Below are positions 855 to 17,790 of a DNA stretch of 64,000 nt, one piece after another (the first letter of the stretch is position 1; every line of letters starts with the position of its first letter). The notes under the pieces are model-generated. The model was given only the letters and a program-made list of their open reading frames with translations, was not told the DNA's origin and ran no database searches. The stretch is from NCBI RefSeq assembly GCF_003611695.1, contig NZ_RAWE01000004.1, positions 62,001-126,000 of the forward strand. Direction: 5' to 3'. Origin of the DNA: Corallococcus carmarthensis (GTDB taxonomy: Bacteria; Myxococcota; Myxococcia; Myxococcales; Myxococcaceae). The position numbers and the translations under genes are program-made.

Positions 855-875
855 TCGAACCTGGAGCTACCGCAC

Positions 876-965
876 ATGCGAACGACCTTACGAAACCTCC
901 ACACGGAACAAGTCACGAGCGTCCCGGCCGGGGTGGCGTGCGCGTGTTGTTGCCAGCGGGTGTGA
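876..965 (+). CDS. 29-aa peptide with poly-Cys C-terminus (leader peptide or peptide precursor)
   Basis: ATG 876 to TGA 963-965 encodes 29 residues ending in VACACCCQRV. GGAG at 863-866 sits 9 nt before the ATG, a good ribosome binding site. Four of five consecutive codons (939-953: TGC GCG TGT TGT TGC) are Cys, two being TGT, which is disfavoured in such GC-rich DNA. A rare TTA Leu codon lies at 888-890. The stop is 5 bp before the ATG of the carrier-protein gene at 971, which has no clear ribosome binding site of its own, so translational coupling is likely. Poly-Cys upstream ORFs are known as cysteine-responsive attenuators in mycobacteria. A downstream operon with a Cys-activating NRPS and a cysteine desulfurase fits that role. 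A ribosomal precursor peptide is the alternative, but I see no YcaO, radical SAM or lanthionine-type enzyme. The function is inference. Confidence 0.6.
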   Translation: MRTTLRNLHTEQVTSVPAGVACACCCQRV

Positions 966-970
966 GACCT

Positions 971-1240
971 ATGAACAAGGACGCTTTCATCAGGACGCTG
1001 AGCGAAGCCCTCCAGCAAGAGCCCTCCCAGCTCGACCTGTCGAAGAGCTTCATCGACAACGGTGGTTACTCCCTCGCCGCGGTCCGTTGGATCGATTTGA
1101 TCTACCCCGCCACGGGGGTGGTCATGAACTTCTTCGACGTGATGGGCACGGAGCCGCTGCAAGCCCTGCTCGACGCGCCGCCGGAAGGAGCCTCCGCCGG
1201 TGCGGAAGCGTCCTCCGACGTGGATGAGGGCGTCATATGA
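971..1240 (+). CDS. Acyl/peptidyl carrier protein
   Basis: An 89-residue stand-alone carrier domain. The motif 'SFIDNGGYSLAAVRW' places the phosphopantetheine-accepting Ser at residue 34, in the G-G-x-S context typical of NRPS carriers. The last 20 residues are a flexible Ala/Gly/Ser/acidic tail. ATG 971 is chosen because an in-frame GTG at 938 lies inside the Cys-rich ORF and has no ribosome binding site. ATG 971 itself has no clear one either, suggesting coupling to that ORF, which stops 5 bp earlier. The stop overlaps the start of the large NRPS by ATGA (4 bp). In pathways such as clorobiocin, a free carrier next to a KAS III-like protein receives an acyl group shuttled from another PCP. 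The same role is inferred here; its cargo is unknown. Confidence 0.75.
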   Translation: MNKDAFIRTLSEALQQEPSQLDLSKSFIDNGGYSLAAVRWIDLIYPATGVVMNFFDVMGTEPLQALLDAPPEGASAGAEASSDVDEGVI

Positions 1241-4200
1241 CGTCCGCCGCCCCAACGCAGGCCCGTGCGACGGGCCCTGAGACCGCGCCCGCGGCCCTCC
1301 CGGCCGAGGCCGAAGAGGAGCTGCTGACCGCGGCGACGTACGACCTCGTCGAGGAGCTGAGCGAGGCCGGTGTCGAGCTGAGCGTGAAGGAGGGACGCCT
1401 GGCGTTCAAGGCGCCACCGGGGCGGCTCACCGACGCGCTGAAGGAGCGCATCCGCGAGCAGAAGGAAGCGCTGCTCGCGCTCCTGGGGCCTGACGAAGCC
1501 GTGCGGGCCCGCGCCCGCACGCTGCCGCTGTCGGAGCTTCAGCAGTCCTACTGGCTGGGCGAGGCCGGCACGCAGGGCATCGCCGGGGCAGGGTGTTGGT
1601 ACAACGGCTTCTCCGTGGAGACGCTGGACCTGGAGCGTCTCCAGGCCGCCCTCTCCGCGCTGTTCGCGCGTCACGACTCGCTGCGGATGACGGTGGGTCC
1701 GGACGGGCGCGGGCGGCTCCTGGAGCACGTGGGCCCCTTCCCGCTGGAGTACCAGGACCTGCGCGCGCTTCCGGCCGCGGAGGTGGAGCGGGAGCTGGAG
1801 CGCACGCGGACCACGATGAGCCGGCCCCGGAGCGGCGCGGAGGTCTGGCCGCTCTACCGGATGTGCGTGCAGCGGACCGCGGAGCGCTTCTACGTCCACG
1901 TCGAGGGCCGGCTCCTGGTGGGCGACGCGACGTCCTGGTTCCTCTACGTCGAGGAGCTGCGGAAGCTGCTGGAGGATCCCGCGCGCACGGACCTGCCCGC
2001 GCCGGGACGGCTGGCGAGCCTGATCCTGCGCCGCTTCCGGCAGCTCGTGTCGGCCGACTATCAGCGCGCCCGGCAGTACTGGGCGGGGCGTGCGATTCCG
2101 CCGTCGCCCGCGCTCCCGGTGCGCACGCTCGCCGAGGGCGGAGGCCGCATCCGGCGGTTGATCGCGGACCTGCCCGAAGCGGAGGCCACCGTGCTGACCG
2201 CCCGGGCCCGGGAGTTCGGGCTGACGCTGGACAACGCGCTGATGGGTGCGTTCGCGCTGGTGCTGGCGGAGTGGGCGCAGGCGCCGGACTTCAGCATCAA
2301 CGTCCTGCACGGCGGAGGGCGGCACCTCGGCCTGCCGCTCGGTCACTTCGGCGGCATCGTGCGCCTGGAGCTGAACGTCCGGCGCGAGGCGTCCTTCGCG
2401 GACCTGGCGGGCGCCATCCGTCAAAGGCTCGCCCTGGACATGGGCTATGCGTCCGTGGACGGCGTGACGGTGCAGCGGATCGCGGCGCGCCAGTCCGGCA
2501 CTCCGGTCCGCGCGGGCGTGGTCGCCTATTCGAGTGGCCTGGCCCTGGGCCGGTCCGACACGGAGATTGGCCTGGCGCAGCTGGGGTGGAAGCCGGAGGG
2601 CGCCAGCATCCAGAGCCCGGGCGTCCTCATCGACCAGCAGGTCTTCCGGACGCTGGACGGCCTCCGCTTCCACTGGGACATCGACGCGGACACGCTGTGT
2701 CCCGGCGTGGGCGAGGCGATGTTCGAAACCTTCCTGGCCGGCGTCCGCCGTCTGGCGGAGGCGCACGATTGGAAGACGCCCCTGCGGATGGGGCTGCCCC
2801 CAGCGCAGCAGGCCTCCCAGGCTCGCGCCAACGCCACGTCGGCGGAGCGCTCCGTCCACCGGCTCCACTCCCTGCTGGAGCGGCAGGTCCGCGGGCATCA
2901 CGGCGCGGCGGTGGTGACGCGCGAGCGGACGCTGTCGTTCCAGGAGCTGGGACAGCGCGCGAGCGGCGTGGCGAACGCCCTTCGTGCACGTGGCGCGAAG
3001 CCGGACGTCCCGGTGGCCATCGTCGCGAACAAGGGCTGGGAACAGGTGGTCGCCGCGCTCGGCACCGTCATGGTCGGCGCCCCCTACGTGCCCCTGGATC
3101 CGTCCTGGCCGTCCGCGCGCCTGTCGGCGGTCCTCTCCGCCGCTGATGTGGGAATGGCGCTGTGTGACGCCGCTGGCGCCGAGGCCCTTGCCCGGGAGGG
3201 CGGTGGTGCGGCCCTCGTGAGCCTCCGCATCGACGCGGTGCCCCTGGCCTCCATGGACGCGGCGGGTCCGGACACCGGCCAGCTGGCGTACATCCTCTTC
3301 ACGTCGGGTTCGACGGGAGAGCCCAAGGGCGTCGCCATCTCGCATGACGCGGTGGCCACCACGCTCGAGGACATCCAGCGCCGCTTCGGCGTGGGCCCGG
3401 AAGACTGCGTGCTGGGCGTCTCGCACCTGCACTTCGACCTGTCGGTCTTCGACATCTTCGGCGTCCTGGGCGCGGGAGGCCGGCTGGTGCTGCCTCCGCC
3501 CGCCAGCCACCCGGATCCCGCGGAGCTGTTCCCGCTGGTGCAAGAGCACCGCGTGACGGTCTGGAACACGGTGCCGGCGATCATGGAGATGCTCGTCGAG
3601 TACATGGAGTCGCGGGGCCTCCAGGCGCCGTCGCTGCGGCTCGCGCTCCTGTCGGGAGACTGGATCCCGGTCACGCTGCCCGCACGGATCCGCTCGGTGT
3701 TCCCGAACGCGCGCGTGGTGAGCCTGGGCGGCGCCACCGAAGCGTCCATCTGGTCGAACGCGTTCGAGGTCCAGGACGTTCCGGCCACCTGGTCCAGCAT
3801 CCCCTACGGCTTCCCGCTGGCGAACCAGCAGCTGCTGGTGTTGCACCCGGGCGTGGGCACACCCTGCCCGGACTGGGTCGAGGGCGAGCTGGCCATCGCG
3901 GGGCAGGGGCTCGCGGAGGGCTACTGGCGTGCACCGGAGAAGACGGCGGCGGCCTTCGTCACGCATCCAGAGACCGGCCAACGGCTCTACCTCACCGGCG
4001 ACCGCGCCCGCCGCTGGCCCGACGGCAACATCGAGTTCCTGGGCCGGACCGACGGCCAGGTGAAGATCAGCGGCTACCGGGTCGAGCTGGGTGACGTCAC
4101 CGCGGCGCTGAAGAAGTGCCCGGCCGTGGACAAGGCCGTGGTCGTGGCCGTGGGGCCGCGTGAGCACCGCTGGCTTGCCGCCTTCGTCACGCCCACGGGC

Positions 4201-5397
4201 GCGGAGCCGCCAGAGCTGCGGGACATGCTGTCCGCGCTGCTGCCTTCGTACATGGTGCCGCGCCGGATCCACTGGCTGCCGGAGCTGCCGCTCACCGCCA
4301 ACGGCAAGGTGGACCAGGCGAAGCTCCGCGAGCTCGCGCTGCTCGACCAGCCCGTCACGCTGGCGCCGCGCACGCCCGCCGAGCACCTGATGGCGGAGCT
4401 GTGGTCGCAGATCCTCGGCCGCCCCATCCGCGACACGCAGGTGAGCTTCTTCGAGGTGGGCGGTGAGTCGGTGCTGGCGGTCCGGCTCGCGAACGCCATC
4501 GAGCACCGCACCGGCGTGCGCCCCGAGCTGGCGGAGCTGCTGCGGACCGCGACCATCGAGGGCATGGCGCGGGTGATGGGCGGCCAGCGCGGTGGGGCGC
4601 ACAGCGCGCTCGTGCGCATGCAGCGGGGCGCGGAGGGCGCGCCCACCGTCGTGTGCATCCACCCCGTCGGCGGCACCGTGTACTGCTACCGCGAGCTGGT
4701 CGACCTCCTGGGCAAGCGGTTCACCGTCGTCGGGCTCCAGTCGCTGGGGCTCGAACGCGGGGACCTGTCGCTGCGCGACCTGGCGGCTCACTATGTCGAA
4801 CAGCTGGACAGCGCGGGGCTCAAGCCCGACGTGCTCTTCGGCTGGTCCCTGGGCGGCGCCGTCGCGCTGGAGGTCCAGCGCCGCCTCGAAGTCCGGGGAA
4901 CGCGCCGGGTCGCCGCCGTGCTCGTCGACCCGTGGGTCCGGAAGCCCGCCGCTTCCAAGCCGGAGATGAAGGCCCTGGAGGCGGCGTTCATCCGCGACGT
5001 CCTGCGCGGCGCCGGCACGCTCAGCCTGGAGGCGCTGGCCGAACGGCTGCGGACGCGCTCGCTGCCGGAGGTCGTCCAGTCCCTGGGCGGCGACGGACTG
5101 GCACAGCGTGCGCGCGGCTCCGAGCTCGCGGCGCTGTTCGAGCAGTTCCGCCAGAACACCTCGGCGCTGCTCGGCTACGACCCGCCCGACGGTCCCGTCG
5201 ACGCGGACGTGTGGTTCGCCGACGCGCAGCGGCCCGAGGACTTCCCGCACCTCCAGCCGTTGGACCAGTGCCGTCAGGTGCCGCGCGTCCACCGCGTGCC
5301 CGCGGATCACTACGGCATCATGGAAGGTGACGCGTTGAAGCGCATCGCCGCGGCCTTGCGGAGCCGGTTCGAAGTCACCCAGGAGGCCGCGTCATGA
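1237..5397 (+). CDS. NRPS: TubC docking - Cy-like condensation - A (Cys) - PCP - thioesterase
   Basis: 1386 residues. A TubC-type N-terminal docking domain spans about residues 26-85. The condensation domain (about 92-520) is of the heterocyclization class: 'PLSELQQSYWLG', 'YWAGRAIPPSPALP' and 'SPGVLIDQQVF' match Cy-specific cores, and no HHxxxDG is present. In the DxxxxDxxS core the first Asp is replaced by Arg ('RLLVGDATS'). The A domain (about 540-1040; P-loop 'TSGSTGEPKG', A10 'TANGKVD') reads DLFNLSLIWK by hand alignment to GrsA, one residue from the Cys code DLYNLSLIWK. A PCP ('FFEVGGES') lies near residue 1075. A thioesterase follows with GWSLGG (Ser1204) and a C-terminal His1358. Expected job: load Cys, acylate and possibly cyclise it, then release. 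It overlaps its neighbours by 4 bp on both sides, so the operon is translationally coupled. Whether a thiazoline forms is uncertain because of the Asp loss. Confidence 0.88.
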   Translation: MTSAAPTQARATGPETAPAALPAEAEEELLTAATYDLVEELSEAGVELSVKEGRLAFKAPPGRLTDALKERIREQKEALLALLGPDEAVRARARTLPLSELQQSYWLGEAGTQGIAGAGCWYNGFSVETLDLERLQAALSALFARHDSLRMTVGPDGRGRLLEHVGPFPLEYQDLRALPAAEVERELERTRTTMSRPRSGAEVWPLYRMCVQRTAERFYVHVEGRLLVGDATSWFLYVEELRKLLEDPARTDLPAPGRLASLILRRFRQLVSADYQRARQYWAGRAIPPSPALPVRTLAEGGGRIRRLIADLPEAEATVLTARAREFGLTLDNALMGAFALVLAEWAQAPDFSINVLHGGGRHLGLPLGHFGGIVRLELNVRREASFADLAGAIRQRLALDMGYASVDGVTVQRIAARQSGTPVRAGVVAYSSGLALGRSDTEIGLAQLGWKPEGASIQSPGVLIDQQVFRTLDGLRFHWDIDADTLCPGVGEAMFETFLAGVRRLAEAHDWKTPLRMGLPPAQQASQARANATSAERSVHRLHSLLERQVRGHHGAAVVTRERTLSFQELGQRASGVANALRARGAKPDVPVAIVANKGWEQVVAALGTVMVGAPYVPLDPSWPSARLSAVLSAADVGMALCDAAGAEALAREGGGAALVSLRIDAVPLASMDAAGPDTGQLAYILFTSGSTGEPKGVAISHDAVATTLEDIQRRFGVGPEDCVLGVSHLHFDLSVFDIFGVLGAGGRLVLPPPASHPDPAELFPLVQEHRVTVWNTVPAIMEMLVEYMESRGLQAPSLRLALLSGDWIPVTLPARIRSVFPNARVVSLGGATEASIWSNAFEVQDVPATWSSIPYGFPLANQQLLVLHPGVGTPCPDWVEGELAIAGQGLAEGYWRAPEKTAAAFVTHPETGQRLYLTGDRARRWPDGNIEFLGRTDGQVKISGYRVELGDVTAALKKCPAVDKAVVVAVGPREHRWLAAFVTPTGAEPPELRDMLSALLPSYMVPRRIHWLPELPLTANGKVDQAKLRELALLDQPVTLAPRTPAEHLMAELWSQILGRPIRDTQVSFFEVGGESVLAVRLANAIEHRTGVRPELAELLRTATIEGMARVMGGQRGGAHSALVRMQRGAEGAPTVVCIHPVGGTVYCYRELVDLLGKRFTVVGLQSLGLERGDLSLRDLAAHYVEQLDSAGLKPDVLFGWSLGGAVALEVQRRLEVRGTRRVAAVLVDPWVRKPAASKPEMKALEAAFIRDVLRGAGTLSLEALAERLRTRSLPEVVQSLGGDGLAQRARGSELAALFEQFRQNTSALLGYDPPDGPVDADVWFADAQRPEDFPHLQPLDQCRQVPRVHRVPADHYGIMEGDALKRIAAALRSRFEVTQEAAS

Positions 5398-6335: not shown

Positions 6336-7900
6336 CCATGCTGCTCTCCGACTTCCTCCTCCAGCACGGCAGGACCGCGCCCGAGCGCGACGCATTGGTG
6401 CACGACGGCGTCCGCTGGGACCACGCCCGGCTGGCCGCCGAGGTCGCCCGTTACCGGACCGCGCTCGCGGAGCTGGGCCTGGGACGCGGTGACCGCGTCG
6501 TTTCGCGTATGGAGGCCGACCCCGACGCCATCGCGTTGCTCATCGCCACCATGGCGCTGGGGGCCGCGTACGTGCCCGTGGCGCCGGAGCTTCCCCCAGC
6601 GCGCTTCGAGGCCATCCTCGCGCGGCTGGAGCCCGCCGCAGTCGTCGTGTCGAGCGACCTGCGCGACGCGCCGGGCGTTCCCCCTGGCACGCAGGTGGGG
6701 CCGCTGGTGGTGGCCCGCACGGCCCATCCCGTGAGCGGCGACACCACCGCGCCGGGCCCGGAGGACGCGGCCTACATCATCATGACGTCGGGCTCCACGG
6801 GACAGCCCAAGGGCATCGTGATGACCCACGGCGCCGCGGTGAACACGCTGCGCGGGTTCAGCGAGCTTGGCGTCCCGTCCTCCGCGCGCGTCGGGACCAT
6901 CTCTCCGCTCCACTTCGACTTCGCCATGTTCGACGTAGGCATGGCGCTCGGCAACGGGGCCACGCTGGTCCAGGTGCCGCGCATGCTGGCGTATCAGCCC
7001 CGGGGACTCGTCGAGTACCTGGACGAACACCGGGTGACCCAGATGCACTCCGTGCCGTCCGTGTGGCGTCCGCTCCTCACGGAAGGGGACGCGTCGCTGC
7101 TCGGGGGCCTGCGCCACCTGGACACCATCCTCTACGCCGCGGAGAGCTTCCCGGCGAAGGACGTCCACACCCTCCAGGGCTGGCGGCCGGACCTGCGCAT
7201 CGTCCAGTGCTTCGGCCACTCGGAGTCCATCGGCTGCTGCTTCAAGACGTTCGCCAACCCGGCGGCCACCTTCAAGGGCCGGCTCTCCCTGGGAGTGGCG
7301 CTGCGCGGCACGGAGATGTTCGCGCTGGACGAAGCCGGCCGGGAGATTGGAGTGGGGGAGGAGGGCGAGCTGTACGTGCGCGGGCCGCACCTCTTCCGAG
7401 GCTACTGGCGCGACGAGGCGCAGACCCGTCAACGGCTGGTGCCGGATCCGCGCACCGGTGAGGGCGCCGTCTTCCGCTCCGGCGACGTGGTGACGCGCGA
7501 CGAGCAGGGCGAGTTCTATTTCATCGGCCGGCTGGATCATCAGGTGAAGGTCGGTGGCAACCGCGTCGAGCTCTCCGAGATTGAACACGTCGTGGAGGGA
7601 GACCCTGACGTCGCGGCGGCGGTGGCCGTCGTCCCGGCGGACGAGGCGCGGGCCACCCTCACGTGCTTCGTCGTCGTGCGTGGCTCGAAGCCGTGGAACG
7701 AGCTGATGGTCCGCCTGCGCTCGCGCATGTCGGCCGCGATGCCCCGCTACATGGTCCCGCGTCACCTGCGGCGGCTCGAGTCCTTCCCGGTGCTGTCCAA
7801 CGGCAAGGTCGACCGGCTGCGACTCGCCCAGATGGCCGCCGAACCGGAGGCCCCGGCGCCGCTCCGGACGCCTCGCAACCCATCCCTGGAGGTCCCATGA
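6332..7900 (+). CDS. Free-standing adenylation enzyme 1 (amino/aryl acid-AMP ligase)
   Basis: 522 residues from GTG 6332 (GGGAGG at 6321-6326; GTGA overlap with the previous stop). ATG 6338 is a possible alternative. It is a complete A domain without fused PCP: P-loop 'TSGSTGQPKG', 'FRSGDVV' (A7-like), 'GRLDHQVKVGGNRVE' (A8) and 'LSNGKVDR' with the A10 Lys. The hand-read pocket code is about D-F-F-H-L-A-C-G-C-K, which matches no substrate I know; the starting Asp suggests an alpha-amino group. A 4-bp ATGA overlap joins it to a free PCP (7897-8166) and then a P450. This order suggests it loads that PCP and the P450 oxidises the tethered residue, as in known A-PCP-P450 beta-hydroxylation trios. 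The substrate assignment is open. Confidence 0.85.
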   Translation: MTMLLSDFLLQHGRTAPERDALVHDGVRWDHARLAAEVARYRTALAELGLGRGDRVVSRMEADPDAIALLIATMALGAAYVPVAPELPPARFEAILARLEPAAVVVSSDLRDAPGVPPGTQVGPLVVARTAHPVSGDTTAPGPEDAAYIIMTSGSTGQPKGIVMTHGAAVNTLRGFSELGVPSSARVGTISPLHFDFAMFDVGMALGNGATLVQVPRMLAYQPRGLVEYLDEHRVTQMHSVPSVWRPLLTEGDASLLGGLRHLDTILYAAESFPAKDVHTLQGWRPDLRIVQCFGHSESIGCCFKTFANPAATFKGRLSLGVALRGTEMFALDEAGREIGVGEEGELYVRGPHLFRGYWRDEAQTRQRLVPDPRTGEGAVFRSGDVVTRDEQGEFYFIGRLDHQVKVGGNRVELSEIEHVVEGDPDVAAAVAVVPADEARATLTCFVVVRGSKPWNELMVRLRSRMSAAMPRYMVPRHLRRLESFPVLSNGKVDRLRLAQMAAEPEAPAPLRTPRNPSLEVP

Positions 7901-8166
7901 CACGTGAAGAATTTCAGGCGAACATCATCCAGTACCTCGCGACCCAGGCGTCCCTCCCCGAGGGCTGGTCCTGCGGCCCCAAGGAGAACCTCTTCGACCT
8001 GGGCGTGTTGGAGTCGTTCGACCTGCCGCGCCTGGTCGCGCACATCGAGCGGATGCTGGACCGCCGCGCGGACCTGAAGTCCCGCCGCAGCGAGGTCTTC
8101 TTCACGCTCGACACCATGTACGAGGCCTTCGTCGGCGCCTCCAAGGAGGGCTCGTGCGCTCCCTAG
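7897..8166 (+). CDS. Free-standing peptidyl carrier protein
   Basis: An 89-residue carrier. 'NLFDLGVLESFDLPRL' resembles the F-D-x-G-x-x-[DE]-S phosphopantetheine site of stand-alone PCP/DltC-like carriers, with Ser40 as attachment site. It overlaps the upstream adenylation gene by 4 bp (ATGA) and the downstream P450 gene by 13 bp, so the three are almost certainly co-translated. The likely cargo is the aminoacyl group made by the enzyme at 6332-7900, presented to the P450. The KAS III-like proteins may later move the acyl group to the NRPS or to the carrier at 971. Confidence 0.8.
   Translation: MTREEFQANIIQYLATQASLPEGWSCGPKENLFDLGVLESFDLPRLVAHIERMLDRRADLKSRRSEVFFTLDTMYEAFVGASKEGSCAP
8143..8150 (+). 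promoter_or_regulatory. Strong ribosome binding site (AAGGAGGG) for the P450, inside the PCP gene
   Basis: AAGGAGGG lies within the last codons of the PCP gene, 3 nt before GTG 8154. It supports the GTG start and the 13-bp gene overlap. Confidence 0.6.
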
Positions 8167-9308
8167 ATTTCCTGTCCACGGACTACCTGGAGAATCCGTG
8201 GCCGCTCTACGCGCATTACCGGCGCGAGCAACCCATCTGGTGGTCGGACGAGATCCGGATGCACTGCGTGTTCCGCTACGAGCACGTGCACGCCATCCTC
8301 AAGGACCCGCGCTTCACCGTGGAGTTCCCCTTCCGCATCACGGAGGAGCTCTTCGGCCGGACGCTCATCGACATGGAAGGGCCGGAGCACCTGCGGCTGC
8401 GCCGGAAGGTCGCCCCGCTGGTGGGCAACGCCAACCTCGCGATCTTCGCGCGTGAGGTGTCCGAGCCCCGCATCACCGCGCTGGTCCGCGCCGCGGCGGA
8501 GCAGCCGCCCATGGAGTTCATGCGCGCCATCGCGGAGCGCGTGCCCACGCTGATGATCTCCGAGTTCCTCGGCTTCCCGCTGGAGGACGAGCGCTGGCTG
8601 TTCGAGCAGATGATGATCCTGATGGACCACCTGGACGGGAAGCGGGGCAACCGTCAGGAGGTCTATGACGTGCACACCGCGGTGAGCGCGTGGCTGGACG
8701 GCATCATCGCGCGGCTCCTGAGCGAGGGCCCGGGCACGCGCGGCTTCAAGCGCCTCATCGACGGCATCCGCGACGAGACCCCGGAGACCATCAAGATCCT
8801 CTACTGGACCTTCCTGGCCGGAGGCATCGAGACCTCCATGTGCCTGCTGGGCAACGCGGCCACGGTGCTCTCGCGAAACCCGTCCTGGTTCGAGCAGCTG
8901 GCCACCGTGCCGTCCATGGCGCGCGCCATCCTGGATGAGGTCCTCCGGTTCGAACCGGTGCAGGCGTCCACCGTGCGCTTCGCTTCGGAGACCCTCGAAC
9001 TGGGGGGCGTCACCATCAAGCGGGGCCAGGCCGTGAACCTGCTGCTCGCCAGCGCCGCGCGGGACGACTCCACGTTCGCGTCACCCGACGTGTTCGATCC
9101 CACGCGGACGCTGTCCAACTCCCTGTCGTTCGCGGTGGGCCCGCACGCGTGCGTCGGGAAGACCTTCACGATGATGAACGCGGAGATCACCCTGCGCACG
9201 CTCTGGAACACGTGGCAGGGCGTCCAGCCGGTGGAGGACGCCCCCGCGATCATCCGGGGCGCGTCGTTCCGCAAACCCCACGCACTCTTTCTCAAGGCGA
9301 AGCACTGA
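8154..9308 (+). CDS. Cytochrome P450
   Basis: 384 residues, soluble bacterial class. The heme loop 'FAVGPHACVG' fits F-x-x-G-x-H-x-C-x-G, with Cys333 as proximal ligand. The I-helix is 'LAGGIETS' (A-G-x-x-T class; acidic Glu followed by Thr). The K-helix region is 'DEVLRFE' (E-x-x-R). GTG 8154 is supported by a strong ribosome binding site. Immediately after a free PCP, the most likely role is hydroxylation or desaturation of a PCP-bound amino acid, a common arrangement for NRPS-recruited P450s. No ferredoxin or reductase gene is nearby, so electrons must come from elsewhere. Direct oxidation of the released product is the alternative. Confidence 0.92.
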   Translation: MRSLDFLSTDYLENPWPLYAHYRREQPIWWSDEIRMHCVFRYEHVHAILKDPRFTVEFPFRITEELFGRTLIDMEGPEHLRLRRKVAPLVGNANLAIFAREVSEPRITALVRAAAEQPPMEFMRAIAERVPTLMISEFLGFPLEDERWLFEQMMILMDHLDGKRGNRQEVYDVHTAVSAWLDGIIARLLSEGPGTRGFKRLIDGIRDETPETIKILYWTFLAGGIETSMCLLGNAATVLSRNPSWFEQLATVPSMARAILDEVLRFEPVQASTVRFASETLELGGVTIKRGQAVNLLLASAARDDSTFASPDVFDPTRTLSNSLSFAVGPHACVGKTFTMMNAEITLRTLWNTWQGVQPVEDAPAIIRGASFRKPHALFLKAKH

Positions 9309-9351
9309 CCCAACGCTCGCGAACTCCGCCAGCGCACACGAGGAACCCCCA

Positions 9352-10263
9352 ATGATTTTCGTCAACGGCATTCGTTATGTCCTGGGTGAGTCCAGGCCCA
9401 TCAGCAGCGTCCCCGAACTGGGAGGCGACGAGGCAGCGATCAAGTTCCTGGCGGACCGGGGCTTCAAGAACTACCGGCACTCGACGGTGGAGGCGTGGGA
9501 GCTGGGCGTGGACGCCGCGCGCCAGGCCATGCAGGCCGCGGAGGTCACCGTCGCGGACATCGACCAGGTCATCTACGCGTCGGTGAGCTCCCGGACCCCC
9601 GCGCACGGCGACCTCTCCATCGGCCTGTTTGCCCACCGCATGGAGATGCTGACCACGCCCATCACCGGCGTCTGCTTCGGTGAATGTACCAACGCGATGC
9701 TCGGCATCGAGCACGCCGCCATGCTGCTGGAGACTGGGAGGGCGCGCACCGTTCTGCTGGTCTCCACCGACGTCGCATGTAGCAAGGAACAGCGCGTCAC
9801 CACGGGACAGACCATCTGTTCCGACGGTGCCGCCGCGTGTGTCATCACGCGTGAGCCGCGAGGCTCGGCCGTTCCTTCCTTCGAGCTGCTCGGCTTCGCC
9901 AAGGCGTTCCACCACCTGTCGCGCGCAGGCATGTCCAACCCCGCGAAGAGCTTCCGCGACATCTGCGGCGCCGCCATGCGGTGCAAGAAGACGGTGCTGG
10001 CGAAGATCGACAAGCCGCTGGCGAAGTGGATCCCCAACACGGCGAACAGCGAAGTGGCCGGCGCGCTCGCGAGCGTGCTGGGCATCCCCGCGAGCATGTT
10101 CTACCTGGACAACCTCCCCGAGTACGCGCACGTCTTCTCCACGGACCAGCTGATCAACCTGGTGGACTGGGCGACGCGCTCGAAGGCGCCCTCCGGCTCC
10201 GTCGTCGCGGGGCTCGCCACGGGAACCTCCGGCAGCTCCGTCGCGGCCTGGCGGGTCGTCTGA
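9352..10263 (+). CDS. KAS III-like (FabH-fold) acyltransferase/ketosynthase 2
   Basis: 303 residues. Cys112 in 'FGECTNAMLGIE' aligns with the FabH nucleophile. The 'HQAN' segment reads 'NTAN', so the catalytic His is replaced by Asn. His260 ('YAHVFSTDQLI') occupies the FabH Asn274 region, exactly as in the protein at 5394-6335. GAGGAA precedes ATG 9352. The two proteins are clearly diverged from each other, suggesting separate acyl donors or acceptors rather than a simple duplicate. Expected to act on carrier-bound thioesters in the cytosol, either transferring the oxidised residue from the PCP at 7897 or joining it to a second carrier. A true condensing activity is less likely given the missing His/Asn pair, but not excluded. 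Confidence 0.75.
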   Translation: MIFVNGIRYVLGESRPISSVPELGGDEAAIKFLADRGFKNYRHSTVEAWELGVDAARQAMQAAEVTVADIDQVIYASVSSRTPAHGDLSIGLFAHRMEMLTTPITGVCFGECTNAMLGIEHAAMLLETGRARTVLLVSTDVACSKEQRVTTGQTICSDGAAACVITREPRGSAVPSFELLGFAKAFHHLSRAGMSNPAKSFRDICGAAMRCKKTVLAKIDKPLAKWIPNTANSEVAGALASVLGIPASMFYLDNLPEYAHVFSTDQLINLVDWATRSKAPSGSVVAGLATGTSGSSVAAWRVV

Positions 10264-10297
10264 CGCGAAGCGCCCGCTGACTCCGGTGAGCCCTCCG

Positions 10298-11881
10298 ATG
10301 CAACGTCCGAACGCCCAGTCCGTCCGGCCCCTGGCCGAGACCTTCGCGCACATCGCCGCGGCCCGTGGGGACCATCCCGCGGTCGTGGGGCCACGCGAAG
10401 CGGTGTCCTATGCCGCGCTCCAGCGGAGCGTGGTGTCGCTGTCCAGCGGGCTCGTGGGCCGGGGGCTGGAGGGCGCGGTCATCGGCATGCTCCTGCCGAG
10501 CGACCTGGCCTACGTGGCCACCATGCTGTCCATCCTGGACCGGCGAGGCGTCTTCGCCCCCATGGATGCGGCATGGCCGGAGGCCCGGCTGCGCTCCGCG
10601 CTGGAGATGACGCGGCCGGCGGCCCTGGTCATCACGCCGGAGCAGGCCGAGCGTGTCAGCGGGCTCGTAGCCACCCTGGGCTCACCGTGCGAGCTGCTGG
10701 TGGTGGAGGGCCGGGCGGCGGAGGGCTTCCGCTTCAACACCGTGAGGGCCGCGGCGGAGGCACATCCGCAGCACAATGACCTCACGGCGCCGTGGACGGA
10801 GGACTCGCTCTACCTCGTCTACACGTCGGGCTCCACGGGCACGCCGAACGCCGTCGAGGGCTCCCACCTGTCGCTCGCCGTCTTCATCGAGTGGCAGGCG
10901 CGCACCTTCGAGGTCGGTTCGGAGTGCCGTGTCTCCCAGCTCGCGCCCACCACGTTCGACGTGAGCCTGCGGGACTTCTTCCTGCCGCTGTGCACGGGCG
11001 GCACGCTCTACATCCCGGCCGCGGGCACCCGCTACCATCCCATCCTGTTTCCGCGCTGGGTGGCCGAGCACCGCATCAATCTGATGCACTCGGTGCCTTC
11101 GGTGTTCAAGCTGGCGTCGGAGGTCAGCTGGACGAACGCGAAGCTGAAGGGTTCGTTCGACTCCCTCCGCAAGCTGTTCCTGTCCGGCGAGCGCCTCTAC
11201 GTGGAGGACGCCCGGCAGCTCCAGGCGCACCTCTCCCCGGATGCGCAGCTGATCAACTTCTACGGGCCCAGTGAGTGCACGCTCATCAAGACGTGCTTCG
11301 TCGTGCCCCGGGATTGCAGTGGCCTGGAAGGCGACGTGGTGCCGCTGGGCCGGCCCATCGAGGGCTGCGAGGTCCGGCTGGACGGCGGCACTGATGCGCA
11401 GTCCGGCGAGCTGGTCCTGGAGTCGGAGTTTCTCGCCAAGGGTTACTACCGGAACCCGGAGCTGACGGCCGCGAAGTTCTCCAGCGTGGCGCGGCCGGAC
11501 GCACCCAGGCTGCGCGCGTACCGCACGGGAGACCTGGGCTACCGCGATGGCCAGGGCCTGCTCCACTTCACCGGGCGCAAGGACCATCAGATCAAGGTCA
11601 ACGGCAACCGGGTGGAGCTGGGCGAGGTGGAGCACTGCCTCCGGCGCATGCCCGGCGTCAGCGGCGCGGTGGTCGTGGCCAGCGACTCGCGTCAGGGCGC
11701 GGATCCCATCCTGTCCTGCGTCTACGCGAGCGACGGCGACCTCGCCGAGGACCAGGTCCGCGCGCACCTGCTCCAACACCTTCCCAAGTACATGGTCCCC
11801 ACGAATGTCAGGCGGATGGGCGAACTGCCGCTGCTGACGAACGGCAAGGTCGACCGCAAGCAGATCGCCTCACTTTTCTAA
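10298..11881 (+). CDS. Free-standing adenylation enzyme 2, P-loop Lys missing
   Basis: 527 residues from ATG 10298 (GGTGAG 7 nt upstream); GTG 10286 is a possible alternative. It is a complete A domain: 'YTSGSTGTPNAVEG' (A3), 'FYGPSECT' (A5), 'YRTGDLG' (A7), 'GRKDHQIKVNGNRVE' (A8) and 'LTNGKVDRK' (A10, catalytic Lys present). The A3 loop has P-N-A where P-K-G is usual, so the phosphate-loop Lys is lost. The pocket code reads roughly D-V-R-H-F-S-F-L-I-K, not one I recognise; an Arg at position 239 would put a positive charge in the pocket and could favour an acidic or oxidised substrate. It is followed after 17 bp by a PCP-C protein, whose N-terminal carrier is the likely partner. Confidence 0.85.
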   Translation: MQRPNAQSVRPLAETFAHIAAARGDHPAVVGPREAVSYAALQRSVVSLSSGLVGRGLEGAVIGMLLPSDLAYVATMLSILDRRGVFAPMDAAWPEARLRSALEMTRPAALVITPEQAERVSGLVATLGSPCELLVVEGRAAEGFRFNTVRAAAEAHPQHNDLTAPWTEDSLYLVYTSGSTGTPNAVEGSHLSLAVFIEWQARTFEVGSECRVSQLAPTTFDVSLRDFFLPLCTGGTLYIPAAGTRYHPILFPRWVAEHRINLMHSVPSVFKLASEVSWTNAKLKGSFDSLRKLFLSGERLYVEDARQLQAHLSPDAQLINFYGPSECTLIKTCFVVPRDCSGLEGDVVPLGRPIEGCEVRLDGGTDAQSGELVLESEFLAKGYYRNPELTAAKFSSVARPDAPRLRAYRTGDLGYRDGQGLLHFTGRKDHQIKVNGNRVELGEVEHCLRRMPGVSGAVVVASDSRQGADPILSCVYASDGDLAEDQVRAHLLQHLPKYMVPTNVRRMGELPLLTNGKVDRKQIASLF

Positions 11882-11898
11882 ATCTCCTGGAGCACGCC

Positions 11899-13536
11899 TT
11901 GTCCACCGACACAGCGCAACGTCTTGCAACGCTTTGCAAAGAGATTCTGAGGATCGACCACGTCCGGCCGGAGGCCTCCCTGGTGTTGCAGGGCGCGTCC
12001 TCCATGCGCCTGATGCAGCTGGTCGCGCGCCTCTACGAGGACTTCGACGTCATCGTGGACCTCAGCGAGGTCATGGGCGAGGTGACGCTGGATTGGATCG
12101 CCGCCATGGTCGAGGAGCGCCGCGCGGCGGACGGCGGCGGTGCGGCGCCCACGCCGGCCCTGGCGGAGGAGGCCCGGCGTCCCGCGGGAGGGCCCGTGCC
12201 CCTCAGCGAGCTCCAGCTCGCCTTCTGGGAGATGCGCCGCTACGCGCCGGCGATGGCCGCGTACAACGAGGGCGTCAGCCACCTGGTGAAGGGCGACCTG
12301 GACCTGGCCGTCTGCAAGAAGGTCCTGGTGGAGCTGGTCGCGCTCCAGCCCGCGCTGCGCAATGCCTACCTGGAGGTGGACGGCGTCCCGGTGCAGCGCG
12401 AAGTGCCCATGGCGGAGATCGAATCGTCCCTCAAGCTGGAGGTGACGGACCTGTCTGCGCATCCGGATCCGATGGCCGAGTGCGCCGCGCAGCACCGGGC
12501 CATGTACGCGACCCGGTTCGACCTGTCCGCGCCGCCATGCTTCCGCGTCGCCGTGTGGAAGGTGGGTGAGCGGCGCTGGGTGGTGTCGTGGGTCGTGTAC
12601 CACATCGTCACGGACTGGTGGGCGGTGGACGTCCTGCGCCGCGGCGCCGCGAAGCTGTACCGCGCGCTGATGGCGGCGGGAGTCCCGGAGTCGCGCCCGT
12701 CCGCGGTGCCGCAGGATCCGCACGCCGGCACGCGCTTCACGGCGGACGACGAGGCCTGGTGGTTGGCGAAGTTCCAGACGCCGCCGCGTCCGTTGACGCT
12801 GTCCAGCCGTCCCCGGCCGCTGATCAAGAGCTACGCCGGTGAGATGTACCTCCAGGAGCTCCAGGGCATCTCCGCCAGCCGGATGGAAGGCCTGCGCGAG
12901 CGGCTGGCCGTCACGATGTCCAGCCTCACCTACGCGGCGTTCTCGCTCCTGCTCGCGGCGCTGAGCGGCGAGGACGACGTGACGGTGGGCGTGCCGTTCC
13001 TCAACCGCCAGCACGCCGACGTGCAGGACACGGTGGGCCTGTTCGTCAACAGCCTGCCGGTGCGCATGAAGGCGGAGCACGGAGTTGCCGCGGGCGACTA
13101 CATCCGCGCGTGTCACGGCGAGCTGCTGGAGGCCTTCCGCCACGGGCGCTATCCGTCGTTCCGGCTGATGCGCCAGCTCAAGCTGCCGACGCGCTTCAAC
13201 CGGGCCCCGCTCTACGACCACCTCTTCAGCTACTACGAGAACACCGTCGTGGACGTCGTCTGCGACCAGACGAAGCTCGCGGTGACGGAGATCGAGCTGC
13301 CGCGCGGCACGAGCAAGTACGACCTGAGCCTGTTCGTGACCCGGACCGGGGACCGGCTCGACTGCAAGGCGGAGTACACCACCGCGCTCTTCTCCCAGGA
13401 GGAGACCGCCGCCTTCGTCTCCCACTACCAGGCCCTCCTCGAACGGCTTCTGACCGACTCCAGCGTGACGGTGGGCGAGCTCCTCGCCACGGTGCGCGCG
13501 CGCGTCCAGCACTCCCTTCCCCAGCAGCGGGCCTAG
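11899..13536 (+). CDS. NRPS didomain: PCP - condensation
   Basis: 545 residues from TTG 11899 (GGAG at 11889-11892, 6 nt upstream). Residues about 1-75 form a carrier domain with 'LQGASSMRLMQLV', Ser35 being the likely phosphopantetheine site. From about residue 95 ('PLSELQLAFWEM') to the end is a condensation domain with 'YHIVTDW' (His235): the catalytic second His and the Asp of HHxxxDG are kept, the first His is Tyr and the Gly is Trp. 'DTVGLFVNSLPVRM' is a typical C-domain core. No A domain is fused; the neighbouring free A enzyme (10298-11881) probably loads this PCP. The C domain probably joins an upstream acyl group to the PCP-bound unit, or passes it to the Cys NRPS, whose docking domain needs a partner. 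Confidence 0.85.
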   Translation: MSTDTAQRLATLCKEILRIDHVRPEASLVLQGASSMRLMQLVARLYEDFDVIVDLSEVMGEVTLDWIAAMVEERRAADGGGAAPTPALAEEARRPAGGPVPLSELQLAFWEMRRYAPAMAAYNEGVSHLVKGDLDLAVCKKVLVELVALQPALRNAYLEVDGVPVQREVPMAEIESSLKLEVTDLSAHPDPMAECAAQHRAMYATRFDLSAPPCFRVAVWKVGERRWVVSWVVYHIVTDWWAVDVLRRGAAKLYRALMAAGVPESRPSAVPQDPHAGTRFTADDEAWWLAKFQTPPRPLTLSSRPRPLIKSYAGEMYLQELQGISASRMEGLRERLAVTMSSLTYAAFSLLLAALSGEDDVTVGVPFLNRQHADVQDTVGLFVNSLPVRMKAEHGVAAGDYIRACHGELLEAFRHGRYPSFRLMRQLKLPTRFNRAPLYDHLFSYYENTVVDVVCDQTKLAVTEIELPRGTSKYDLSLFVTRTGDRLDCKAEYTTALFSQEETAAFVSHYQALLERLLTDSSVTVGELLATVRARVQHSLPQQRA

Positions 13537-13539
13537 GCC

Positions 13540-14790
13540 ATGCACAAATCCTTTGGAAACCTCGATGCGGCCTGGAAGGAAGCCTCCTTCGCGTACAAGA
13601 GCGTTCCGTTCTTCCGGAACCGGCCCTCCCTGACCCCCGCGGCCTCGCCCGCGGCGGGCTTCCTCGACATCCCGATGACGAGCAAGCCGGACTACCGGAA
13701 GAACTTTCCGGCGGGAGTCCTGGCGGATGGCCGCTCGGTCAACGACCCCTACGTGCAGCGGTATCAGAGCTCGGGGACGAGCGGCGACCGGCTGGTGAGC
13801 GTCATCCACGCGTTCAAGCTCGCGGACCGGATGGCGAACTGCCTCTCCGTGAACAAGAGCCTGAGCTTCCTCCTGGATGAGCCGAAGATCCGGATGTGCC
13901 GCTACGCGGCGCCCAACTGTTCGGACGTCGAGTGCAGCAACCCGAACACGCGCATGGAGGACCGCATCCTCCAGGACGGCACGCTGGTGCTGCCCGTCTA
14001 TCACGACCTGCTCACGACGCCGGAGCCCATGCTCAAGCGCGCGTTCGACGAGCTCCACTCGTACGAACCGAACGTCTGGTACGTGGACCCGATGCACCTG
14101 TCGGTGCTGATCAAGAAGGCCCGCGCGTCCGGCTGGAAGTTCGACATGAACCGCAAGGTGTCGGTGCTGCTGACCTACACCTTCGCGACGCAGGCGTTGC
14201 TGCGGCAGCTGGCCACGCTGTGCGAGGGCCACTTCCCGGTGGCCTCCGTGATGGCGATGTCCGAGTTCGGTTTCGTGGGGCTCGCCTGCGAGGAGGGCAA
14301 CCTCCACCTCAACGACAAGGACTACTACCTCGAGTTCATCAAGATGGAGGCGCCGGACGACCGCGACGACCTCTGGGAGCTGGTCATCACGAGCGTGGGG
14401 GACAAGCTGTGTCCGCACATCCGCTACCGCACCAATGACATCTACCGGCTCCTGGGACAGTGCAAGTGCGGCAGCGCGATGCCCGCCGTGGCCTTCCAGG
14501 GGCGCGTGAAGGACCTGGTGAGGCTGCCCAGCGGCCGCTACGTCACGCCCGGCGAGCTGGATGCGCTGGTGGGCGCGCCCCGGTGGATCGACATCTTCCA
14601 GCTCACCTTCCAGAAGGCCGGCAACTTCATCTTCCGCTACAGCGGTGAGGTCGAACCCAACGCGGACGAGCTGGCCACGCTGCGCTCGAAGCTGGAGGAC
14701 CTGCTGGAGTCGAAGTCACTCCGGATGGAGGCGGTCCACTACTTCCCGTTCGAGCGCGGGGGCAAGTTCCAGTTGGTCAGGACGGGGTGA
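13540..14790 (+). CDS. PaaK/F390-synthetase-like AMP-dependent ligase
   Basis: 416 residues, three bases after the PCP-C stop. The nucleotide loop is 'YQSSGTSGDR' (S-S-G-T-[ST]-G). 'HIRYRTNDIYRL' and 'FQGRVKDLVRL' correspond to A7/A8 of the ANL superfamily, but the overall pattern is that of phenylacetate-CoA ligase/coenzyme F390 synthetase relatives, not an NRPS A domain. A C-K-C-G motif (near 14461) precedes A8, and further Cys residues cluster near 13890-13940; such Cys sets can bind a metal in relatives. 'GGKFQLV' near the end may hold the A10-type Lys. Probable role: activate a carboxylic acid, probably aromatic or acyl, as adenylate and pass it to a carrier such as the one at 971. Substrate unknown. 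Confidence 0.75.
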   Translation: MHKSFGNLDAAWKEASFAYKSVPFFRNRPSLTPAASPAAGFLDIPMTSKPDYRKNFPAGVLADGRSVNDPYVQRYQSSGTSGDRLVSVIHAFKLADRMANCLSVNKSLSFLLDEPKIRMCRYAAPNCSDVECSNPNTRMEDRILQDGTLVLPVYHDLLTTPEPMLKRAFDELHSYEPNVWYVDPMHLSVLIKKARASGWKFDMNRKVSVLLTYTFATQALLRQLATLCEGHFPVASVMAMSEFGFVGLACEEGNLHLNDKDYYLEFIKMEAPDDRDDLWELVITSVGDKLCPHIRYRTNDIYRLLGQCKCGSAMPAVAFQGRVKDLVRLPSGRYVTPGELDALVGAPRWIDIFQLTFQKAGNFIFRYSGEVEPNADELATLRSKLEDLLESKSLRMEAVHYFPFERGGKFQLVRTG

Positions 14791-14832
14791 GGGCAGGGTG
14801 TCCGGCGTGATTCCACACTTGGGTGAGATGCG

Positions 14833-16062
14833 ATGATGGCTTTCGGCTCCAATGACTTGATCACCTCCGGCGCGGTGCGGGAGGACTTCCCCATCCTCAC
14901 GCGACAGGTGGATGGCGAGCGGTTCGTCTACCTGGACAGCGCTGCGACGGCGCTGAAGCCGCGGTCGGTGATTGACGCGGTGACGCGCTACTACACGGAG
15001 TGCACGGCGAACATCCACCGCGGGCGCCACCGCCTGTCGGAGGAGGCGTCCGACCTCTACGAGGAGGCGCGCGGCAAGGTGGCGCTGATGGTGGGGTGCG
15101 CGAGCAACGAGGTCATCTTCGTGCGCAACACCACGGAGGGCCTGAACCTGGCGGCCTCCTGCATGGGGCTGAAGAAGGACGACCTGGTCGTCGGGTTCCT
15201 GGACGCGCACCACTCGCAGCTGCTGCCGTGGATGCGGGGCGCGAACTACCAGGTGGTCCGCCAGGGCCCGAACTGGCAACCCGACCTGGACCACTACGCG
15301 GAGCTGTTGCGGCGGCGGCCCAAGGCCGTGGTGGTGACGCATTGCTCGAACGTCACGGGCGGCTTCCTGCCGCTGGAGACGATCTCGAAGATGGCGCACG
15401 ACGCAGGGGCGCTGGTGGTGGTGGACGCGGCCCAGTCCGTGGCGCACTGCCGCCTGCGGTTCACCGAGTCCAACATCGACTTCCTCGCGCTGTCGGCGCA
15501 CAAGATGCTGGGGCCGTCCGGCATCGGCTGCCTGGTGGGACGGGCTTCGCTGCTGCGGGACGCGGAGGCGGTGCTGGTGGGCGGCGGCGTCGTGGACTTC
15601 ACCACGCTCGAGTCCTTCCAGTACCGGAAGATCCCCCACAAGTTCGAGGCGGGAACGCCGGCCATCGAAGCCGCCTTCGGCTTCGCCGCGGCCATCGACT
15701 ACCTGGACATGGTGGGCCTGGAGCGCATCCAGGCGCACGACCACGAACTGTCGCGGGCGTTCCTGGAAGGGCTGAAGCGCAGGCCCCGGCTCAAGCTGCT
15801 GGGGCCCGACGTGGCGGAGGCCCGCGCCCCCATCTTCAGCCTCTACGTGGACGGCCTGGAGGACCTCTCCGACGTGAGCCGCGCGCTGAGCGACGCGCAT
15901 GGCGTCATGTGCCGCAACGGGCACCTGTGCGCGCAGCCTCTGGTGGACCACTACACCAGCGGCGAGGTCCTGCGGATGTCCGCCTATCTCTACAACACCG
16001 TCGAGGAAGTCGAGTACGCGCTGAGCGCCCTGGACGAAGTGGTCCGGGTCTACCAGCGGTAG
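14833..16062 (+). CDS. SufS-type cysteine desulfurase (class V aminotransferase fold)
   Basis: 409 residues. 'LALSAHKMLGPSGIG' carries the PLP Lys (Lys224). 'RNGHLCAQPL' carries the catalytic Cys366 in the R-x-G-H-x-C context of SufS/CsdA. 'YLDSAATALKP' and 'NIHRGRHRLSEEAS' are also family signatures. The enzyme takes sulfur from L-cysteine as a persulfide, leaving alanine. No SufE, IscU or Fe-S assembly gene is nearby, so it is probably a pathway-dedicated sulfur donor (as in some thiotetronate and thio-natural-product clusters) and not housekeeping. It lies 42 bp after the PaaK-like gene and 18 bp before the flavoprotein gene, same strand. A Cys C-S lyase or aminotransferase role on a carrier-bound residue is an alternative. 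Confidence 0.85.
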   Translation: MMAFGSNDLITSGAVREDFPILTRQVDGERFVYLDSAATALKPRSVIDAVTRYYTECTANIHRGRHRLSEEASDLYEEARGKVALMVGCASNEVIFVRNTTEGLNLAASCMGLKKDDLVVGFLDAHHSQLLPWMRGANYQVVRQGPNWQPDLDHYAELLRRRPKAVVVTHCSNVTGGFLPLETISKMAHDAGALVVVDAAQSVAHCRLRFTESNIDFLALSAHKMLGPSGIGCLVGRASLLRDAEAVLVGGGVVDFTTLESFQYRKIPHKFEAGTPAIEAAFGFAAAIDYLDMVGLERIQAHDHELSRAFLEGLKRRPRLKLLGPDVAEARAPIFSLYVDGLEDLSDVSRALSDAHGVMCRNGHLCAQPLVDHYTSGEVLRMSAYLYNTVEEVEYALSALDEVVRVYQR

Positions 16063-16080
16063 CGGAGGAGGGGACACGCG

Positions 16081-16647
16081 ATGAACAACATCTACGAGGA
16101 GATCAGCCCCAAGCTGCGCGACTTCATCGCGAACCAGAAGATGTTCTTCGTCGCGACGGCTCCGCTGTCCGCGGACGGGCACGTCAATCTGTCGCCCAAG
16201 GGCCACGACTCGCTGCGGGTGCTCGATGCGCACCGCGTCGCCTACCTGGACCTGTCGGGGAGCGGGGTGGAGACCATCGCGCACCTGCGGGAGAACGCCC
16301 GCATCTGCATCATGTTCTGCGCCTTCGACGGGCCGCCGAAGATCATCCGGCTGCACGGACGGGGGCGCGTGTTGACGCCGGAGCAACAGCCGGAGTTCGG
16401 CGAGCTCCTGTCGCTCTTCCCCGACCTGCCAGGGGGGAGGGCCATCATCGTGGTGGACGTGACCCGCATCGCCGGCTCCTGCGGGTTCTCCATCCCGCGC
16501 TACGAGTTCGTGGAGCAGCGCGACCAACTGGTGAAGTGGGTCAACAAGAAGGGACCGGACTGGTTGGCTGACTACCGCAAGAAGAACAACGCGGTGAGCA
16601 TCGACGAGCTGCCCGCCATCGATCCCGACCCGGAATCCGGCGACTGA
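16081..16647 (+). CDS. Pyridoxamine 5'-phosphate oxidase-family flavoprotein (split beta-barrel)
   Basis: 188 residues. The order 'KLRDFIANQKMFFVATAP', 'DGHVNLSPKG', 'ENARICIMFCAFDGPPKIIRLHGRGRV' fits the PNPOx-like FMN/F420-binding split-barrel fold. Its last third ('VKWVNKKGPDWLADYRKKNN') is a typical helical tail of this uncharacterised subfamily. It is the last gene of the operon, 18 bp behind the desulfurase. It may oxidise or reduce a biosynthetic intermediate, for example thiazoline to thiazole; that is speculation. General PLP salvage to serve the desulfurase is another option, though the PNPOx substrate residues are not recognisable. Confidence 0.75.
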   Translation: MNNIYEEISPKLRDFIANQKMFFVATAPLSADGHVNLSPKGHDSLRVLDAHRVAYLDLSGSGVETIAHLRENARICIMFCAFDGPPKIIRLHGRGRVLTPEQQPEFGELLSLFPDLPGGRAIIVVDVTRIAGSCGFSIPRYEFVEQRDQLVKWVNKKGPDWLADYRKKNNAVSIDELPAIDPDPESGD

Positions 16648-16853: not shown

Positions 16854-17744
16854 ATGGCGACATCGATTGCGGCGACGCGTGCGCTCCGTGGCGTACGACG
16901 CGCCATGGCTGTGGGCGGTACGTGTCACGGATTGCTGTTCGTGGTGCTGGCGCTCTCTGGCTGTGCCGGGGCTCCGGCTTCGCCAGATGCGAAGGGCGGG
17001 GCATTGGACGCGCCGGACATGGCGCGCATCGTGGGCGGCTCGTTCCAGATGGGCAGTGAGGACGGGCCCCCCGACGCGCGGCCCGTGCATCCGGAAGCGG
17101 TGCAAGCCTTCCAGCTGGACCGGACGGAGGTGACCGTCGCGGCATACGCACGCTGTGTCCGTGAGGGCAGGTGCGGCGAGCCAGCGGCGAACGCGGCGGC
17201 GGGCTTCCAGCAGTTCTGCAATTGGAAGCACCCCGAAGGGCGTGAGACGCATCCCATCAATTGCGTCACGTGGCTGGATGCGGACGCCTATTGCCGGGCC
17301 ATCGGAAAGCGGCTGCCCACGGAGGCCGAGTGGGAGTACGCGGCGCGCCGTCCTGACGGCCGGACGTATCCCTGGGGGGAGGCGGCGCCGGACGCGCGGC
17401 GTGCGAACGCGTGTGGTGAAGGCTGCGTCCAGAACGGCAAGGCGAAAGGCTTCGACGGTTGGAAGGCGGCCCCCTTCCCCGACGATGCGTACCCGGAGAC
17501 GGCGCCTGTCGGCAGCTTCCCGGAGGGGCAGTCCGCGGACGGGGTGATGGACCTCGCCGGCAACGTCTGGGAGTGGACCGCGAGCGGTTACGCGGCGACC
17601 TACGACGGCGTGAAGGATGAGGGCCTGCGGGTGAACCGCGGTGGGGGTGGGCGGGACGACGTGTCGACGTTCCGCGCGGCCACTCGCAGCAAGAACCGTC
17701 CCGAGACCCGGACTGGCGGCATCGGTTTCCGCTGCGCCCGGTAG
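16854..17744 (+). CDS. Lipoprotein with formylglycine-generating enzyme/SUMF1-like domain
   Basis: 296 residues; GAGGGGG precedes ATG 16854. A long n-region, a hydrophobic stretch and the lipobox 'LALSGC' (Cys37) mark a lipoprotein signal peptide. The rest is an FGE-sulfatase (SUMF1) domain: 'MARIVGGSFQMGSEDG', 'DRTEVTVAAYARCVREGRC', 'RLPTEAEWEYAAR', 'DLAGNVWEWTAS' and the closing 'GIGFRCAR'. In true formylglycine-generating enzymes two active-site Cys bind copper near the C-terminus; I see only the last Cys, so this is probably a structural or binding homologue and not a sulfatase activator. Such lipoproteins are frequent in myxobacteria. No sulfatase or kinase gene is adjacent. It precedes another lipoprotein gene by 119 bp on the same strand. 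Confidence 0.85.
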   Translation: MATSIAATRALRGVRRAMAVGGTCHGLLFVVLALSGCAGAPASPDAKGGALDAPDMARIVGGSFQMGSEDGPPDARPVHPEAVQAFQLDRTEVTVAAYARCVREGRCGEPAANAAAGFQQFCNWKHPEGRETHPINCVTWLDADAYCRAIGKRLPTEAEWEYAARRPDGRTYPWGEAAPDARRANACGEGCVQNGKAKGFDGWKAAPFPDDAYPETAPVGSFPEGQSADGVMDLAGNVWEWTASGYAATYDGVKDEGLRVNRGGGGRDDVSTFRAATRSKNRPETRTGGIGFRCAR

Positions 17745-17749
17745 TTCGC

Positions 17750-17790
17750 GCCCCCGTACCCGGGCTGGCGAACGCCGCGCGGCCGGGGGC
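17750..17790 (+). terminator. Weak inverted repeat after the SUMF gene
   Basis: GCCCCCG (17750-17756) pairs with CGGGGGC (17784-17790) across a 27-nt, itself GC-rich, loop. There is no T-run. It could be a terminator between the two lipoprotein genes or merely a GC-rich coincidence. The remainder of this 119-bp gap shows only the AAGGAG ribosome binding site before 17864. Confidence 0.25.

Follow-up and report, generated by a model that had tools for sequence, protein, structure and literature searches.

A short open reading frame of 29 codons (mini-ORF), ending in clustered cysteine (Cys) codons, lies directly upstream of a carrier-protein gene within a biosynthetic array of Corallococcus carmarthensis. 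From the 64,000-nucleotide stretch of DNA that we analyzed (the window) and its relatives, we tentatively favor the reading that the mini-ORF is translated, coupled to the next gene and regulatory, and that its Cys codons would gate translation of a Cys-using block. Arguing for this reading are the retention of the ORF in 3/3 array-bearing genomes, the frozen Cys end, its uniqueness among 496 short ORFs, and the presence of a Cys-type non-ribosomal peptide synthetase (NRPS) and a SufS-type desulfurase in the array. Against it stand the small sample of three closely related genomes and the overlap of the Cys end with the carrier-protein initiation region. Weak structural predictions, a carrier-protein gene with a ribosome binding site of its own, and a peptide that has no relatives elsewhere in 195 phylum genomes also count against it. 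Translation of the mini-ORF and its coupling to the carrier protein are moderately supported, and we infer both a response to Cys and the direction of that response.

Layout of the mini-ORF and neighboring genes

The features discussed below are listed by window coordinates and strand.

276–818, + strand: GNAT acyltransferase gene upstream of the mini-ORF, candidate counterpart of AzsS/Tri31
863–866, + strand: Shine-Dalgarno (SD) sequence GGAG for the mini-ORF, spaced 9 nt from the ATG, by direct reading
876–965, + strand: mini-ORF of 29 codons, MRTTLRNLHTEQVTSVPAGVACACCCQRV, by direct reading
939–953, + strand: Cys codon cluster TGC GCG TGT TGT TGC, codons 22–26
940–963, + strand: possible hairpin (940–943/960–963 plus 945–949/954–958) pairing the Cys codons with the carrier-protein SD
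958–962, + strand: SD-like GGGTG of the carrier-protein gene, overlapping the mini-ORF end (AGGTG in C. interemptor)
971–1240, + strand: stand-alone carrier protein with a GGYSL motif, putatively coupled gene, assigned by eye from motif and size
1237–5397, + strand: NRPS with TubC_N, Cy-like condensation, A, CP and TE domains
14833–16062, + strand: SufS-type cysteine desulfurase, toward the downstream limit of the array

An ATG at 876 and a TGA at 963–965 bound the 29-residue frame. Direct reading agreed with the initial annotation on the coordinates of the ORF and its GGAG, the peptide sequence, four Cys codons within five (two of them TGT), one rare TTA codon and 5 bp between the ORF stop and the next gene. 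The Cys residues are specified by codons 22 (TGC), 24 (TGT), 25 (TGT) and 26 (TGC), and the frame closes with TGC GCG TGT TGT TGC CAG CGG GTG TGA, 5 nt before the carrier-protein ATG at 971. Among the 496 short ORFs (start-to-stop, 8–60 codons, both strands) in the 96 kb around the mini-ORF, it alone had at least four Cys in five codons. The TTA is codon 5 and is kept in all three species that carry the array; this codon is absent from the 5349 + 2292 (7641) codons of 19 neighboring genes.

The mini-ORF starts 57 nt past the end of a co-directional gene and fills a 152-nt gap between the GNAT and carrier-protein genes. No other gap from the MetRS-like to the PNPOx-like gene of the array is as wide; in C. 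interemptor this one is shorter. We saw no sigma-70-like promoter or terminator in this gap, a search that other promoter types would escape. The peptide had no match in NCBIfam, and the RNA had no credible match in Rfam. Stop-codon readthrough from the GNAT gene was considered and rejected, since the window is the only one of the three sequences in which the two genes share a frame.

Biosynthetic context

The initial annotation took the gene at 971 to be the first of its operon. However, it is preceded by a compact run of at least five co-directional genes, which places the mini-ORF mid-array. The upstream genes share its strand and encode an AMP ligase, a GNAT, a C45/AAT-type hydrolase, a MetRS-like protein and a Lys/Orn N-monooxygenase, then a small cupin, a ThiO/DAO-type oxidase and a second GNAT ending at 818. 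Family matches in this upstream part were to Lys_Orn_oxgnase, tRNA-synt_1g (Met), Cupin_2, DAO, GNAT and AAT, and the upstream genes tested were syntenic in all three species. The start of the GNAT gene at 276–818 varies among the three species, and C. interemptor lacks the ATG at 321.

Downstream, the NRPS has the A-domain code DLFNLSLIWK, read by hand against a solved-structure alignment, which we take to be a Cys code with one conservative change. The NRPS is followed by genes for a KAS III-like protein, an AMP ligase, a second carrier-sized protein, a P450 and a second KAS III-like protein, then an A domain, a CP-C protein, a PaaK-like ligase, the SufS-type desulfurase and a PNPOx-like protein. 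The Cys-activating NRPS and the cysteine desulfurase of the initial annotation are both supported. By eye, the Cy-like domain of the NRPS reads RLLVGDATS, in which an Arg replaces the first Asp of the DxxxxDxxS motif. The array extends from about −7537 to 16647 in window coordinates and is followed on the same strand by FGE-type, MauG-type di-heme and JmjC-type genes in a row (16854–20740).

Judged by family and gene order alone, the array holds a hydrazinoacetic-acid cassette together with a Cy-A-CP NRPS, as in azaserine-type clusters. The azaserine and triacsin clusters share with it a Lys N-hydroxylase, MetRS-like and cupin N–N enzymes, an FAD oxidase, a GNAT, a C45-type hydrolase, an AMP ligase, carrier proteins, KAS III-like enzymes and a Cy-A-CP NRPS preceded by a carrier protein (PMC10445470). 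A carrier protein just before a Cy-A-CP NRPS is also the ancestral layout proposed by the authors of the azaserine study (PMC10445470). Unlike those clusters, the Corallococcus array has the cupin, MetRS-like protein and carrier protein as separate genes, and it adds a Cys-type A code, a SufS-type desulfurase and the poly-Cys mini-ORF before the carrier protein. The array is predicted to be an azaserine-like cluster in which Cys replaces Ser, and we infer that its product is a Cys-based compound resembling azaserine. The combination of an azaserine-type pathway and a Cys-type NRPS would make the cluster interesting in itself.

Conservation of the mini-ORF in Corallococcus

The array is known from three Corallococcus genomes: that of the window, C. 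exercitus AB043A (G018) and C. interemptor AB047A (G019). The mini-ORF orthologues read MRTTLRSLPTEQVMSVPAGVACACCCQRV in C. exercitus and MRTTLRSPFTEQRMSVPAGVACACCCQQV in C. interemptor, neither with an indel. The initial annotation had held that absence of the ORF or loss of its Cys codons in close relatives would speak against its proposal; instead, all three genomes retain the SD and ATG, an intact frame with its four Cys codons, and the stop/start spacing. No further array orthologue was found among 96 family genomes with the NRPS as query, in 195 phylum genomes with P0004 as query, or, at greater distance, in the species genome collection with the carrier protein as query. The carrier protein itself (971–1240) has no Pfam match and has relatives in the two further Corallococcus genomes only. 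Searching the 195 phylum genomes with the mini-ORF peptide returned the three orthologues, and the weaker matches were inspected and dismissed. Degenerate ACACCCQ matches other than the three orthologues in 92 family genomes, single hits in G017, G019 (on another contig) and G039, were likewise rejected, all lying inside long open frames.

Sequence change is distributed unevenly over the locus. Ahead of the mini-ORF, C. interemptor has a deletion of ~24 nt and C. exercitus an insertion of 1 nt. Among the three species, the block with the SD, start and first codons (860–893) varies at 2 of 34 sites, the middle of the ORF (894–920) at 12 of 27, and the last 15 codons (921–965), the four Cys included, at 1 of 45; the Cys cluster is identical at every base. 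The contrast between the middle and the Cys end has p = 1e-5 (Fisher test; three genomes only), and that between the middle and the start block has p = 5e-4 (three genomes). Within 921–956, none of the 36 sites changed, for which P = 2.6e-5 under the fourfold-site rate, or P = 0.014 if the mean coding rate is applied. By comparison, variable sites in the NRPS make up 6% of first, 6% of second and 21% of third codon positions, and 25% of fourfold sites; about 7% of its 45-nt windows are equally conserved. In absolute terms the Cys end is as conserved as good coding sequence, and the notable feature is the contrast inside the ORF. In the middle, 5 of the 8 changed codons are non-synonymous; therefore, strong constraint does not act on the entire peptide. 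Coming from three related genomes, this pattern is suggestive and not decisive. The initial annotation had proposed such an alignment as a means to separate an attenuator from a peptide precursor. With the Cys end, spacing and start block conserved and the middle most variable, it leans toward regulation.

A ribosomal peptide substrate or other small functional peptide, which the initial annotation had offered as a RiPP/NRPS hybrid, would fit the encoding of a small Cys-rich peptide beside biosynthetic enzymes. However, the would-be leader part is not conserved as a whole, the middle of the peptide being the most variable, and the genes scanned encode hydrazinoacetic-acid, carrier-protein and NRPS enzymes with no recognized RiPP-modifying enzyme among them. 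Finding neither the conserved leader nor the adjacent modifying enzymes of a RiPP precursor, we consider this explanation hardly credible. A nascent-peptide sensor is also quite improbable. Its C-terminal SVPAGVACACCCQ would arrest the ribosome or sense a metal, a thiol or a reactive product, and would not act via tRNA-Cys. A conserved C-terminus after a variable middle fits an arrest peptide too, and reactive hydrazine-type intermediates are predicted for the pathway of the array. Yet no homologous peptide was found in NCBIfam or the 195 phylum genomes, and third codon positions are unchanged as well, which a peptide effect does not need (a weak argument, from 12 codons).

The carrier-protein initiation region

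The gene at 971 had been described as lacking a clear ribosome binding site. We identified a plausible one in the GGGTG at 958–962, 8 nt from the ATG. In each of the three species its computed pairing energy with the anti-SD is −7.2 kcal/mol, compared to −5.6 kcal/mol for the SD of the mini-ORF. This carrier-protein SD begins 5 nt past the last Cys codon, and the mini-ORF stop (963–965) sits between it and the ATG at 971. In all three species the carrier-protein frame, too, is open across 876–970, and the first start codon in it is GTG 938; therefore, the conservation of 938–970 is not uniquely that of the mini-ORF, and part of it may belong to the carrier-protein start region. Judging from the alignment, the conservation of 921–937 and of the upstream SD–ATG block is not accounted for by the carrier-protein start.

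These observations bear on the view, which we find unlikely, that there is no functional ORF and that the conserved 3′ block is the carrier-protein initiation region, or coding sequence from GTG 938, with the poly-Cys run as a by-product. The open carrier-protein frame and usable GTG 938 are consistent with it, as are the G958A change, synonymous in the carrier-protein frame and R to Q in the mini-ORF, and the codon usage of the mini-ORF (TTA, CGA), unlike that of neighboring genes. However, this view leaves unexplained both the conserved SD–ATG block at 860–893 and the unchanged bases 921–937, before GTG 938. Furthermore, the carrier protein has a normal length when started at 971, where the SD is also the better one (−7.2 versus −4.5 kcal/mol).

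The possible hairpin at 940–963 is marginal against dinucleotide shuffles (z of −1.6, −1.7 and −2.5 in the three species), and its pair 945/958 changes from U-G to U-A in C. interemptor. Taken as a whole, the region folds less than shuffles do (z of +1.2 to +2.4). A competing helix between a start arm and the Cys arm was rejected, as it was no better than shuffles (z of +0.6 to +1.4; duplex p = 0.5). In the predicted free RNA the carrier-protein SD is mostly paired, and it opens with a terminating ribosome at the mini-ORF stop, in a fold model that simply holds the bases under that ribosome unpaired.

An opening of this kind is what a plain coupling mini-ORF would achieve. In this somewhat unlikely alternative, the translated mini-ORF couples translation or protects the mRNA across the 152-nt gap, by keeping the SD region unfolded and preventing Rho polarity, and its Cys codons have no part in sensing. 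The layout is that of a coupling cistron, with its own SD, the stop/start spacing and the downstream SD within the mini-ORF; the predicted opening of the paired SD and the mid-array position, with no promoter or terminator found in the gap, also agree with it. What it does not explain is why four Cys in five codons, two of them TGT, are kept exactly when other codons would serve.

Comparison with known cysteine-codon leaders

Clustered Cys codons have a precedent in the polycysteine leaderless sORF attenuators of mycobacteria reportedly described by Canestrari et al. in 2020. A clustered-Cys short ORF is equally found here, with four Cys in codons 22–26. Two papers that refer to them treat the mycobacterial polycysteine leaderless short ORFs as cysteine attenuators (PMC9031893 and PMC9094748). 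The common ground is a clustered-Cys short ORF directly upstream of a nearby cysteine-use gene. The mycobacterial ORFs are reported to be leaderless, to stand at the 5′ end before cysteine-metabolism genes and to have a measured Cys response, whereas the Corallococcus mini-ORF has an SD, lies mid-array, precedes a Cys-consuming natural-product NRPS and has a putative Cys response. Its GGAG 9 nt upstream, the co-directional gene 57 nt before it and the lack of a promoter-like site in the gap speak against a leaderless ORF. Nor is it the first ORF of a cysteine-metabolism operon, because several genes precede it and the downstream genes use Cys for a product.

A second comparison is the uORFC-8-2 motif upstream of cysS in Rhodobacterales, which comprises stems and an intrinsic terminator and is known from 145 examples (PMC8632094). 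Both are short ORFs with tandem Cys codons and a presumed ribosome-mediated sensor (PMC8632094). Unlike uORFC-8-2, the Corallococcus mini-ORF has three examples, a different downstream gene and no terminator; after its stop we found no intrinsic terminator of that type, and only 5 nt separate the stop from the next ATG. By analogy, the mini-ORF possibly works like the known Cys-codon uORFs, but we do not class it as a member. The classical 5′ cysteine attenuator first envisaged for this locus is not supported, given the mid-array position, the lack of a visible terminator or promoter, and competing structures that, one marginal hairpin aside, do not rise above shuffles. No credible sister poly-Cys uORF was found beside cysDN and ten PALP-family genes of the same genome, which, for these checked sites, argues against a genome-wide set of Cys leaders. 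The literature searched held nothing relevant on a Cys leader in myxobacteria or on leader-peptide attenuation of NRPS clusters.

Proposed regulatory role

In the regulatory reading that we favor, ribosomes would start at 876, read the four Cys codons, stop at 963–965 and restart at 971, so that translation of the carrier protein and NRPS would be coupled to that of the mini-ORF. The carrier-protein gene has its own SD; therefore, coupling is not required. Because the last codons before the restart site include the Cys codons, the supply of Cys-tRNA would set the number of ribosomes that reach it. Assuming a footprint of usual size, the carrier-protein SD would lie just outside a ribosome that waits at codon 22, and one waiting at codons 24–26 would reach or cover it; therefore, either sign of Cys response is physically possible. 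In a feed-forward sense, ample Cys would keep coupling on and scarce Cys would turn it off, with ribosomes stalled over the SD. In the opposite sense, stalling would open the SD-hiding hairpin, as reported for mycobacteria.

We favor the feed-forward sense because the downstream block consumes Cys, an argument from purpose. The resulting specific proposal, that the mini-ORF licenses translation of the Cys-using carrier protein and NRPS only when Cys-tRNA is plentiful, would be a feed-forward substrate check, and we rate it as rather unlikely in this precise form. Such a check would be opposite in sense to amino-acid biosynthesis attenuators. If the regulatory reading is true, a secondary-metabolite operon would read its own building-block supply via the ribosome, inside the operon and without a protein regulator. 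Coupled mini-ORFs of this kind escape annotation, and they could be searched for before other NRPS genes by matching mini-ORF codons to the predicted A-domain substrate.
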